In this document: positions 14,482 through 16,866 of the stretch, one piece after another
Layout: each line of letters starts with the position of its first letter
How positions within the stretch are numbered: the stretch's first letter is position 1
Source: a virus
Strand: one strand, 5' to 3'
DNA: 26,122 nt
Virus record (IMG/VR): IMGVR_UViG_3300013285_000066
Span: 1 to 26,122 of that record
Notes under the pieces: model-generated
What the model saw: only the letters and a program-made list of their open reading frames with translations
The model's database searches: none
What the model was told of the DNA's origin: nothing
Position numbers and translations under genes: made by a program

Positions 14482-14581
14482 AGTTTTCTCCCTTTAAGTA
14501 ACTATGTTGTTATATTAACAAAAATTAATATATGTTGCAACAAGTGTTGTAAAATAATCAAAAATAAATTAAGATAACTTT
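14482..14581. promoter_or_regulatory. divergent control region with candidate operators
   Basis: Three palindromes share a TGTT...AACA or ACAA...TTGT theme: TGTTATATTAACA (14508-14520), TGTTGCAACA (14533-14542) and ACAAGTGTTGT (14540-14550). The minus-strand early promoter reads TTGCAA (14535-14540), 17 bases, TAATAT (14512-14517); the first two palindromes cover its -10 and -35. The third covers the -35 of the plus-strand promoter. A Cro-like protein is encoded directly to the right and is the obvious binder. Confidence 0.55.
14547..14575 (+). promoter_or_regulatory. promoter of the Cro-like gene, probably giving a leaderless mRNA
   Basis: TTGTAA (14547-14552), a 17-base spacer and TAAGAT (14570-14575). 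The ATG begins only six bases after the -10, so transcription should start at or next to the A of ATG. There is no Shine-Dalgarno sequence. Lambda cI from PRM is the known precedent. Confidence 0.45.
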
Positions 14582-14842
14582 ATGCAAACTACAACTAACA
14601 AACATAATTGGAATGATTCTATATTGATTGACTTGCTCGGAGGAACATATGAAGTTGCTAAATTATGTAACGTAGCACCTCCAGCAGTTGCACAATGGAG
14701 ACATCGAGGTTTACCACATGGTCAATTAGTATTTTTAGCGGCTAAACTAGAAAAAGATAGTCATGGTTTAGTTACTAGAAAAGATTTATTTCCTAATACC
14801 TGGTGGATGATATGGCCTGAGCTTGCAAAGAATAGAAAATAG
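14582..14842 (+). CDS. Cro/YdaS-like HTH transcription regulator
   Basis: 86 residues. The HTH is visible at about residues 18-45: LLGGTYEVAKLCNV, PPAVAQWRHRGLP, the usual recognition helix of Cro/YdaS-like regulators (VAQWR). The C-terminal part, LVTRKDLFPNTWWMIWPEL, is common to phage Cro-like proteins of this kind. It is transcribed away from the early operon across a region with palindromic operators. Role: repression of the early minus-strand promoter and probably of itself. No CI-type partner with a protease domain is found in the window. The start has no ribosome site, see the promoter entry. Confidence 0.8.
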   Translation: MQTTTNKHNWNDSILIDLLGGTYEVAKLCNVAPPAVAQWRHRGLPHGQLVFLAAKLEKDSHGLVTRKDLFPNTWWMIWPELAKNRK

Positions 14843-14850
14843 TTTATAAT
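14823..14850 (+). promoter_or_regulatory. sigma70-type promoter for the structured RNA region
   Basis: TTGCAA (14823-14828), a 16-base spacer and a perfect TATAAT (14845-14850), overlapping the end of the Cro-like gene. The predicted start is near G14858, exactly where the foldable region begins. Confidence 0.6.
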
Positions 14851-14857
14851 TTTAATT

Positions 14858-15220
14858 GTCAGGGGTGGAAGCCGACATGATTTAACTCAATAAGTGCCTA
14901 TTCACATGGGTTGGTTTTCTTACATAGATTTTATTGAGTTGATTTATGTTTAGACTTCCACACCAACTCAGTTGAATGGGCATTTTCATTTGGGTGACCG
15001 TACTCCACACGTCAGTAGTGATCCTAGATGGGATGCTTGGAAGGAAACATAGGCTAACGTACACTCCGTTGCAAGCCTCGCTAACTTAAATGGGTATAGC
15101 ACAAGATTAGGTTTAAATGAGTGGTAATAACCGTTCCTAATCGAATGAACATTAACTTAGGTAGCATTAGTAATAATATGTAGTACTTATTATTATGGAT
15201 GGATAGTGGGGTGACCACTC
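14858..15220 (+). ncRNA. candidate large structured noncoding RNA, family unknown
   Basis: The stretch from the Cro-like stop to 15258 holds no convincing protein gene but folds extensively. Stems seen by eye: 14865-14871/14955-14961 (7 bp, extendable past one mismatch); 14884-14893/14931-14940 (10 bp, perfect); 15051-15055/15074-15078 enclosing 15056-15059/15067-15070; 15105-15111/15136-15142 (7 bp, perfect); 15171-15178/15188-15195 (8 bp); 15205-15209/15215-15219. Possible tertiary pairs: loop 14908-14914 with 14963-14969 (7 bp including one G-U), and 15119-15124 with 15215-15220 (6 bp). A good promoter ends just upstream. No terminator is evident, so the 3' end is a guess. I tried and failed to match it to tmRNA, RNase P, a group I intron or a tRNA. 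Large phage RNAs such as GOLLD or ROOL remain possible. Confidence 0.55.
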
Positions 15221-15258
15221 AAGGTAGCGTATTGTTTAAAAATATAGATTAAATATAT

Positions 15259-15351
15259 ATGAATAGTAAAGATATTAAGAACTTTGAACAAAAATTAGAT
15301 AGAATCATTATTGTGTTAGTAATGATATTATTCTTTTTTTTATGGATATAG
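15259..15351 (+). CDS. 30-residue membrane micropeptide
   Basis: ATG 15259 to TAG 15349-15351, overlapping the next start by ten bases. The N-terminus MNSKDIKNFEQKLDR is a charged helix, followed by one hydrophobic segment IIIVLVMILFFFLWI to the end. The design of a basic/amphipathic head and one C-terminal membrane helix is clean, but no ribosome site is visible. It lies directly after the structured RNA region. Confidence 0.4.
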   Translation: MNSKDIKNFEQKLDRIIIVLVMILFFFLWI

Positions 15352-15533
15352 ATAAAACAAGTGAGGAGTACAGGCGTATAACAGAAGCTATTTCAACTTT
15401 ACAAACACCTTTACAACAACGTAGAAATTATTTGTTGCTTGTTGAAAAACATAGAGGTAAAGTTGCAGCAGAAGAATTAAAAAAAGAAATGGTAATGCAA
15501 TTTAACATCTTAAAAGGGAAAAAAGATGAGTAG
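15342..15533 (+). CDS. 63-residue helical protein, unknown
   Basis: Start overlaps the end of the membrane micropeptide, so it is probably coupled to it; no strong ribosome site of its own. The sequence MDIDKTSEEYRRITEAI, STLQTPLQQRRNYLLLVEKH and ending FNILKGKKDE is helical and charged. Small phage proteins with a similar S.EYRRI..AI.TL.TP.QRR.YL..VE pattern occur in other phages, function unknown. It overlaps the next gene by eight bases. Confidence 0.55.
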   Translation: MDIDKTSEEYRRITEAISTLQTPLQQRRNYLLLVEKHRGKVAAEELKKEMVMQFNILKGKKDE

Positions 15534-15669
15534 TTATTTAATATGGGCAATAGGTATAGTTTATCTATACGTTGCGATAGAACAAATCCTTAAAGGTAAT
15601 GTAGCTCTAGGTGTGTCATTTGTAGGATATTTTATAGGCAATATAGGCCTCGGATTGGTAGCTAAATGA
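15526..15669 (+). CDS. 47-residue two-helix membrane protein
   Basis: ATG 15526 has AAAGGGAAAA upstream. Two hydrophobic segments, SSYLIWAIGIVYLYVAI (about 2-18) and VALGVSFVGYFIGNIGLGLV (about 26-45), are separated by EQILKGN. The stop overlaps the methyltransferase start (ATGA). A small hairpin membrane protein; the family, seen in other phages in my memory, has no known function. Confidence 0.6.
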   Translation: MSSYLIWAIGIVYLYVAIEQILKGNVALGVSFVGYFIGNIGLGLVAK

Positions 15670-16556
15670 ATGAGTTGGCTCTTTTCGCAGGCGCTGGTGG
15701 AGGAATACTTGGGGGACATTTGCTCGGATGGAGAACAGTCTGTGCAGTCGAATGGGAAGCCTACCCAGCAAGCGTACTTGTCGCAAGACAAAATGACAAA
15801 ATACTCCCGCCTTTCCCGATTTGGGATGACGTACAAACCTTTGACGGAAAACCGTGGCGAGGAATTGTTGATGTCGTATCTGGAGGATTTCCATGCCAGG
15901 ACATCTCAGTTGCAGGAAAAGGAGATGGACTTGACGGTGAACGATCAGGAATGTGGCGAGAGATGGCAAGGATTATTGGCGAGGTTAGACCCAAATACGC
16001 ATTTGTGGAAAATTCCCCAATGCTCACTGCTAGAGGACTTGGAACAGTCCTTAGAGACTTGGCCCAATTGGGGTACGATGCGGAATGGGGTGTGTTGGGA
16101 GCAGATAACGTGGGAGCAAACCACCACAGAAAACGAATTTGGTTATTGGCTTACTTTAACAGCAACAGCAATATCAGGTCGCAGTTCACAAGCAATGGAA
16201 TACAGAACCAAGCAAAGAGAGAGTCAAGGACACAATACAGTTCAACCAGCCAATCTAGCGGAACAAGTAATGTATTCAGGCGAAATACCTTGCAAAGATA
16301 TGAAGAATCCAACATATTGGGGAACACCAAAAGCACAAGATTCTCGCCATGCGAGTTGGGACAGAGGAAAATCGAATCTTGGAGAACAAGTAGCTGGAAT
16401 TCACAATGGTGGGCATTTGAACCCAACGTGGACAGAGTGGCTGATGGGATGGCCGCTAGAGTGGACAGACTTAAAGCCATTGGAAATGGACAAGTTCCAT
16501 TGTGTGCAGCAACAGCTTGGAACATCCTTAAAGGAAGAATAGATGATAAATCCTAA
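15666..16556 (+). CDS. DNA (cytosine-5) methyltransferase
   Basis: 296 residues, ATGA-coupled to the previous gene. C5-MTase motifs in order: I, FAGAGGGILGG (7-17), binds S-adenosylmethionine; IV, GGFPCQDIS (73-81), catalytic Cys77; VI, ENS (115-117) in place of ENV; VIII, HHRKRIW (153-159); X, AIGNGQVP near the C-terminus. The target-recognition part (about 165-245) is Ser/Asn/Thr/Gln-rich and unusual. A second long frame (+1) is open through almost the whole gene and codes for another recognisable protein, so this region is probably under double constraint. Base composition differs from its neighbours: 30 of 60 G+C at 15901-15960 against 21 of 60 at 16681-16740. Likely role: protecting phage DNA from host restriction. 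Confidence 0.88.
   Translation: MNELALFAGAGGGILGGHLLGWRTVCAVEWEAYPASVLVARQNDKILPPFPIWDDVQTFDGKPWRGIVDVVSGGFPCQDISVAGKGDGLDGERSGMWREMARIIGEVRPKYAFVENSPMLTARGLGTVLRDLAQLGYDAEWGVLGADNVGANHHRKRIWLLAYFNSNSNIRSQFTSNGIQNQAKRESRTQYSSTSQSSGTSNVFRRNTLQRYEESNILGNTKSTRFSPCELGQRKIESWRTSSWNSQWWAFEPNVDRVADGMAARVDRLKAIGNGQVPLCAATAWNILKGRIDDKS
15871..16542 (+). CDS. nested +1-frame gene inside the methyltransferase (phage LNPxWxEWLMGWP family)
   Basis: 223 residues from ATG 15871, with GAGGAA six bases upstream; the frame is open further upstream to 15670. It begins MSYLEDFHARTSQLQEKE, then ECGERWQGLLARLDPNTHLW, then LETWPNWGTMRNGVCW, and ends LNPTWTEWLMGWPLEWTDL. I recall a widespread phage protein family with this series (HARTS, CGERW, DPxTxxWKxxQ, ETWPxWGxMRNG, EWLMGWPxGWT); the last motif resembles the C-terminus of some C5-MTases. 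The stop TAG is followed directly by the ATG of the next gene. Translation of both frames is inferred; the nested frame could be a widely mis-annotated shadow. Confidence 0.6.
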   Translation: MSYLEDFHARTSQLQEKEMDLTVNDQECGERWQGLLARLDPNTHLWKIPQCSLLEDLEQSLETWPNWGTMRNGVCWEQITWEQTTTENEFGYWLTLTATAISGRSSQAMEYRTKQRESQGHNTVQPANLAEQVMYSGEIPCKDMKNPTYWGTPKAQDSRHASWDRGKSNLGEQVAGIHNGGHLNPTWTEWLMGWPLEWTDLKPLEMDKFHCVQQQLGTSLKEE

Positions 16557-16866
16557 TGATGAAATACAACATATTGTTGACCTTATTGATGACTATGCTG
16601 AAGCAGATGCTAAATTAGCTTTTTTAGAATCTTATAAACACGCTTTAAAGGCTTTAAAAATGAAAGAGAGTACCAATCCATCTATTGCAGGTAAAGAAAT
16701 GGATGCGTTGGCTTCTGACGAATATATACAATATTGTGATGATTTATTTTCTGCTAAACATAATTATGCAAGATTAAAATTGATTATTGAAACTTGTAAA
16801 TTAAAAATAGAAGTTTTCAGAACTGAGTCTGCTACAAATAGACAAATAGAAAAAATAACTAGGTGA
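16543..16866 (+). CDS. helical phage protein, unknown
   Basis: 107 residues. ATG 16543 comes immediately after the nested gene stop (TAGATG), overlaps the methyltransferase end by 14 bases, and uses AAGGAAG as ribosome site. Sequence features: MINPNDEIQHIVDLIDDYAE, LAFLESYKHALKALKMKES, then DALASDEYIQYCDDLF and KLIIETCKLKIEVFR. The AxLxxxExxxKxxKAxxM...A..s..Y........A......L pattern recalls helical phage proteins encoded near Ref/NinG-type nucleases. No catalytic motif. GTGA overlap couples it to the next gene. Confidence 0.6.
   Translation: MINPNDEIQHIVDLIDDYAEADAKLAFLESYKHALKALKMKESTNPSIAGKEMDALASDEYIQYCDDLFSAKHNYARLKLIIETCKLKIEVFRTESATNRQIEKITR

Follow-up and report, generated by a model that had tools for sequence, protein, structure and literature searches.

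On the plus strand of a 26,122-nucleotide stretch of viral DNA (IMG/VR record IMGVR_UViG_3300013285_000066, hereafter the window), we identified a member of a conserved family of structured RNAs extending approximately from position 14857 to position 15236 (probability about 0.97; Table 1). More than 70 IMG/VR contigs and the podovirus ctn9Y15 (MW202674) contain homologues. The initial annotation had proposed a large structured RNA adjoining a Cro-like gene, and both the homologues and the covariation of the helices support this proposal.

Table 1. Features of the RNA locus (positions in the window).
Feature	Position	Strand	Remarks
Cro/YdaS-like regulator gene	14582..14842	+	PHROG 35 transcriptional repressor, E 2.7e-12; directly upstream of the RNA
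Sigma70-type promoter	14823..14850	+	-35 TTGCAA 14823-14828, -10 TATAAT 14845-14850; similar boxes in homologues
Whole RNA, about 380 nt	14857..15236	+	Inferred ends: 5′ from the promoter, 3′ where homology stops
H1, small hairpin UGUC/GACA	14857..14877	+	Homologue comparison
PK1 5′ side, H1 loop GUGGAAG	14865..14871	+	Pairs with 14955-14961, CUUCCAC
H3	14884..14940	+	AACUCAAUAA 14884-14893 with UUAUUGAGUU 14931-14940; crosses H2; read by eye
H2, long hairpin	14895..14982	+	14895-14904/14973-14982 and 14907-14914/14963-14970, then a U-rich stretch
PK1 3′ side, CUUCCAC	14955..14961	+	Inside H2; H1-segment complementarity test
Conserved core (about 240 nt)	14999..15236	+	Present in every family member; model R1, alignment A4
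S1, hairpin with loop in PK0	14999..15011	+	CG/GC/UA exchanges
PK0 5′ side, UCCA	15004..15007	+	Pairs with 15038-15041; C-G/G-C/U-A and A-U/G-C/C-G exchanges
P2, hairpin AUCC-UAGAUG-GGAU	15021..15034	+	Pairs 15021-15034 and 15022-15033 exceed all null values; helix 100% paired
PK0 3′ side, UGGA	15038..15041	+	Covariation, 34-sequence alignment
P3, stem-loop	15051..15078	+	Pairs 15057-15069 and 15058-15068, E 0.07
P4, hairpin	15080..15100	+	Double-sided changes in all six pairs; helix 100% paired
P5	15105..15142	+	GAUUAGG 15105-15111 with CCUAAUC 15136-15142; loop carries the PK2 5′ side
PK2 5′ side, AGUGG	15120..15124	+	Pairs with 15215-15219; 15124-15215 G-C/A-U in 52/52, E 0.07
P7, variable-length extension	15165..15201	+	Pair 15167-15199, E 0.07; 98% paired
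PK2 3′ side, CCACU	15215..15219	+	Covariation, 34-sequence alignment
Codirectional genes behind the RNA	15342..16866	+	63-aa ORF, small membrane ORF, C5 cytosine methylase, 107-aa ORF

The initial annotation described about 400 bases without a protein gene at 14843-15258, and we indeed found no convincing gene there, the sole ORF of at least 50 aa being a 60-aa frame on the minus strand. In 52 homologues, maximal stop-free runs do not exceed those of shuffled sequence and the core lengths represent all three residue classes, which rules out a protein-coding gene; the overlooked conserved codon structure that would have refuted the RNA is therefore absent from these homologues. The many stems noticed earlier are present in the sequence, with folding energies corresponding to z = -2.3 on the plus strand and z = -1.6 on the minus strand relative to shuffles. 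Stem energy alone is weak evidence, and it is the covariation described below that settles the existence of the RNA. An RNA on the minus strand was rejected because its fold is weaker and because the promoter and the homology boundaries fit the plus strand. The G+C content was also correctly reported to exceed that of ordinary intergenic DNA (0.39 in the RNA versus 0.20 in the intergenic region 14482-14581).

The first homologues came from loci found through proteins related to the window's Cro-like protein and terminase; these loci provided near-identical copies (L003, L007 and L004) as well as diverged ones (L002, L069, L052 and L034). Two conserved motifs scanned over 2.9 million viral contigs returned 74 and 26 stretches, and a joined three-part signature was present in 65 viral stretches. 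Nearly all motif stretches inspected are homologous across the whole core; two of the 74 (L138 and L157), in which the rest of the RNA is missing, were dropped. Loci retrieved through a neighbouring ERF gene added thirteen more RNA-bearing contigs, including a diverged one. Distant BLASTN searches against named phages yielded podovirus ctn9Y15 as the only real homologue; two annotated minus-strand hypothetical proteins of this phage, UOF80263.1 and UOF80264.1, overlie the RNA (MW202674.1 5130-5377; L002:3931-4178) and are probably spurious. In cellular genomes (84,980 species), the motif occurs four times, always as a chance match without the remaining RNA, and a bacterial or prophage origin was rejected for lack of any true match there. 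The model R1, built from positions 14996-15179 and scoring 157 bits on the window, gave one weak match (E 9.5e-5) against 369 genomes. No record tested carries more than one copy of the RNA.

The main covariation set consists of 34 diverse homologues and 31 base pairs in eight helices. Standard pairs occupy 96.9% of the cells (77.9% in shuffled and 33-42% in slid alignments), double-sided changes are found in 186 cells versus 48 after shuffling, and the covariation score reaches 0.525, compared to 0.173 for shuffled and at most 0.108 for slid alignments; an earlier alignment agrees. We also wrote a tree-aware test following the idea of R-scape, in which ancestral substitutions are redistributed on a FastTree tree to produce 30 null alignments. 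Watson-Crick helix pairs rank at the top of this test, nine of them with an E of about 0.07 or less, and these nine are paired in 44-52 of the 52 sequences. The compensatory changes that the initial annotation wished to see in homologues thus exist, and they are decisive for a structured RNA. The core contains two pseudoknots, one formed by the S1 loop with the strand behind P2 (PK0) and the other by the P5 loop with the 3′ end (PK2). Alignment was most difficult at P5, which is 67% paired in A3. The 8-nt loop of P4, UUAAAUGG (15086-15093), is invariant in the 34-sequence alignment.

Upstream of the core, an optional 5′ domain holds a third pseudoknot (PK1), supported by the complementarity between the H1 loop and a segment inside H2. 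In 21 lineages, the longest complementary match of the H1 segment averages 8.0 nt with the 5′ domain of its own lineage versus 5.6 nt with those of other lineages. The match does not exceed that of shuffles in a small number of lineages, and this test is weaker than the one applied to the core since the H1 starts were set by hand. In the window's own clade, the sequence of H3 varies, whereas its complementarity, judged by eye, is kept in L003, L004, L007 and L168. In several members (e.g., L069, L101 and L120), H2 ends in a U-run and resembles an intrinsic terminator ahead of the core, for which there are no termination data.

The family occurs in two forms. The long form (the window, L069, L099, L101 and others) combines a sigma70-like promoter, H1, H2 and the core. 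The core-only form (L094, L116, L191, L194 and L201) begins a few nucleotides behind the cro stop codon or, in L197 and L209, after an inserted cargo gene; having no promoter of their own, the core-only members can only be produced as part of the early mRNA. The own promoter claimed for the RNA is consequently valid for the window and not as a rule of the family, in which neither promoter nor 5′ domain is obligatory. The -35 box falls within the 3′ end of the cro-like gene, 16 nt upstream of the TATAAT box, with 10 of 12 consensus matches. The DNA of the window is A+T-rich, and sites defined by the consensus only are not more frequent than expected by chance (4 found, 6.4 expected). The TATAAT box pointed out by the initial annotation is present and a similar layout recurs in many homologues, such as TTGACA-17-AATAAT in L099, but the consensus by itself is no rarer than chance. 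In L099, similarity to its relatives starts at the -35 box and continues to directly behind CUAUUGUCC.

The RNA heads the early rightward genes and usually directly follows a Cro-like gene, whose family precedes it in 28 of 56 loci; in the window, the product of this gene has Pfam matches to YdaS and P22_Cro, both below the cut-off. In almost every locus, and in several types of phage, the RNA and the genes behind it point the same way; the other orientation or a place away from early genes is almost never seen. No intrinsic terminator was found directly behind the core in the 56 loci. The layout differs in L099, a single 4.2-kb contig, which lacks about 1.2 kb of codirectional genes that follow the RNA in L140, L163 and L100, so that its intact RNA is followed at 18 nt by a convergent gene; the deletion may be recent. 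The C5 cytosine methylase of the window (PF00145, E 1.3e-32) is one of two plus-strand frames of about 290 codons that overlap almost completely (15666-16556 and 15670-16542); this double frame is also open in L052 (326 and 320 codons), and the second frame has no Pfam match. A TTAGGG(TTT/AAA)..TCCCTA-like element, possibly an operator or a small hairpin, is located shortly behind the RNA in many loci (L002:4217-4232, L094:5222-5237, L101:2792-2807, also L114, L125 and others). Cargo genes that by eye resemble PAPS-reductase/DndC-type enzymes adjoin the cro-like gene in L006, L156, L165 and L197, either between this gene and the RNA or in the RNA slot.

In six loci from other phage types (L110, L112, L132, L137, L139 and L162), the RNA is positioned 57-61 nt before a gene encoding a ParB-like protein or a shorter relative, with helicase and primase genes further behind. 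Such proximity to a codirectional gene would suit a riboswitch-like 5′ leader through which the first gene behind it is controlled at the level of translation or decay. We give this possibility very little credence: the distance and identity of that gene vary widely among loci, no expression platform was seen, and L099 has no such gene.

In close relatives, the same slot is filled by another RNA, either Betaproteobacteria-1 (RF02932) or an EGFOA-like RNA (RF02955). Betaproteobacteria-1 occurs within the window's own phage group at L009:1857-1975 (91 bits), and more widely in the cro-adjacent slot of the podoviruses L009, L185, L186, L190, L196, L202, L207 and L208, the equivalent slot of sister phages scoring 79.7-92.2 bits (cut-off 49.4). 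It shares with the new RNA its slot, neighbours and strand, starting a few nucleotides behind the stop codon of a cro or cargo gene, but differs in sequence, helices and size (a 120-position model), and the two models do not cross-match. Of 20 ERF-anchored loci scanned, ten contain the new RNA, seven RF02932 and none both; the chance of zero overlap is about 0.0015 by a hypergeometric count that ignores relatedness. Likewise, no whole record among those tested contains both, and RF02932 has no match in the window record. Between L209 (new RNA) and L207 (RF02932), homology stops 0 and 3 bases before the respective RNA models and resumes behind them from 4132/4176; the pairs L194/L208 and L197/L196 are similar, with 8-38 bases separating the end of homology from the RNA model. 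This clean swap between the same neighbours indicates that the new RNA and RF02932 are functionally equivalent, on strong but indirect evidence. The tails behind RF02932 in L185, L186, L202 and L207 (CACC..GG..AA..UAU; UUCC..UGGAAGAA) resemble parts of the new core, and model R1 does not match them. A scan of 369 genomes for RF02932 returned nothing; the controls were silent too, hence this is no proof of absence.

The EGFOA-like RNAs (L017:3680-3791 and, in L005, G002:13668-13760) score below the cut-off of 37.7 bits (23.8 and 19.7 bits; E 5e-4 and 2e-3 per record). They follow a 5′ domain similar to H1/H2, as if cores had been swapped. The EGFOA-like RNA also showed a short match to SPO1-type HNH genes. 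The window itself has no EGFOA match.

The exchange bears on a possible role in the replication origin, as a structured primer RNA or an origin transcript. The RNA is often directly upstream of replication genes (encoding a replication-initiation protein or ParB-like, helicase and primase proteins), but in the group of L069, L107, L131, L142 and L148 no gene cluster behind the RNA is a replication-initiation cluster, double-sided covariation points to a function of the RNA and not of a DNA site, and replacement by an unrelated RNA is hard to reconcile with an origin. We consider this role very unlikely.

The initial annotation recognised no known RNA class and left the choice between a distant member of the GOLLD or ROOL families and a new class. 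The Rfam covariance models it recommended, including those of GOLLD and ROOL, gave no match at gathering score in the window or at five homologous loci, and even at E values up to 10 the window produced only a chance match to Ms_IGR-7. A tRNA or tmRNA was excluded by ARAGORN and Rfam, RNase P RNA and group I introns by the Rfam covariance models, and identity with GOLLD or ROOL by the lack of any gathering-score match in the window. The new class is thus favoured, since no Rfam family matches, and the family is absent from Rfam 15, as tested. An earlier description elsewhere cannot be excluded, as publications on RNA motifs discovered by computation were little covered; within the same limits, we found no paper on Betaproteobacteria-1 or EGFOA RNA.

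The new RNA nevertheless recalls GOLLD and ROOL as a large, pseudoknotted phage RNA without known function, and its conserved 3′ and variable 5′ parts recall GOLLD, in which the 5′ part is less conserved than the 3′ part (PMC12286853). With several pseudoknots, a phage location and no obvious protein partner, it could be an ornate RNA that forms homo-oligomers or cages, for which there are no oligomerisation data. This is unlikely: besides the lack of an Rfam match, the new RNA is clearly smaller, GOLLD and ROOL occupy another genomic setting, often tRNA islands, with no tRNA in the window, and the RNA is replaced by the much smaller RF02932.

The data are compatible both with a free-standing RNA gene and with a cis-acting segment of the early transcript. 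Phage HK022 offers the closest precedent: its putR site lies some 270 nt beyond the PR start and acts without any phage protein (PMC9378689). Like putR, the new RNA is a structured phage RNA that lies in the cro region behind an early promoter and is codirectional with early genes. This position, after cro, before the early rightward genes and with no terminator directly behind, together with the conserved fold, the exchange with RF02932 and the EGFOA-like RNA in the same slot, and the core-only members made only within the early mRNA, leads us to place first, tentatively and at less than even odds, a cis-acting RNA that modifies the polymerase. Structure, position and exchangeability are observed; function, including polymerase docking and read-through, is inferred without functional data. 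The nascent RNA would fold on leaving RNA polymerase, act in cis on its own transcript and dock on the elongating enzyme, directly or via a host factor; the docked polymerase would then resist pausing and termination, and the genes behind the RNA would be expressed. A larger, unrelated RNA would thereby do what putR does in HK022, or nutR together with N in lambda. The nutR site of lambda occupies an equivalent place, and the antitermination systems found there differ among lambdoid phages.

Several observations count against the cis-acting model. The put RNA of HK022 comprises only about 70 nt and two stem-loops (PMC9378689), versus about 240-380 nt and up to three pseudoknots for the new RNA. 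HK022 has both putL and putR, whereas the new RNA is single-copy, with no leftward copy in the records tested, and, unlike for put, where RNA alone makes the polymerase read through terminators by way of its beta′ zinc-binding domain, antitermination has not been demonstrated. Behind the RNA, strong terminators show no enrichment (15 in 120 kb versus 9 in 84 kb of the leftward operon), a comparison of little weight either way. Finally, L099 keeps the RNA without codirectional genes behind it, and many members possess their own promoter, as expected of a free-standing RNA gene. The last two points also speak for the main rival, close behind and possible in our opinion, a trans-acting RNA produced early that binds a protein or ribonucleoprotein of host or phage, for instance as a decoy, a regulator or a means of sequestering the transcription or translation machinery. 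The complex fold and the invariant 8-nt loop suggest a binding partner, Rfam types RF02932 and EGFOA as sRNA genes, and slots near cro also house cargo genes. Such an RNA fits poorly with core-only members that lack both a promoter and a terminator directly behind, and with the near absence of copies in the other orientation or away from early genes.

This work adds a well-supported family of large structured RNAs, absent from Rfam 15 and confined to phages in our searches. It remains doubtful, although conceivable, that the new family, Betaproteobacteria-1 and the EGFOA-like RNAs are unrelated, interchangeable RNAs sharing one early-operon slot and the same job, most likely modification of the transcribing polymerase. 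If so, HK022 would not be an oddity: control of early phage transcription by RNA alone would be common and structurally diverse. Two orphan Rfam families would, in that case, acquire a function. The exchange with Betaproteobacteria-1, a swap carried out by nature, suggests that two orphan RNAs have equivalent tasks, and it makes the long-standing question of phage RNA function directly testable.
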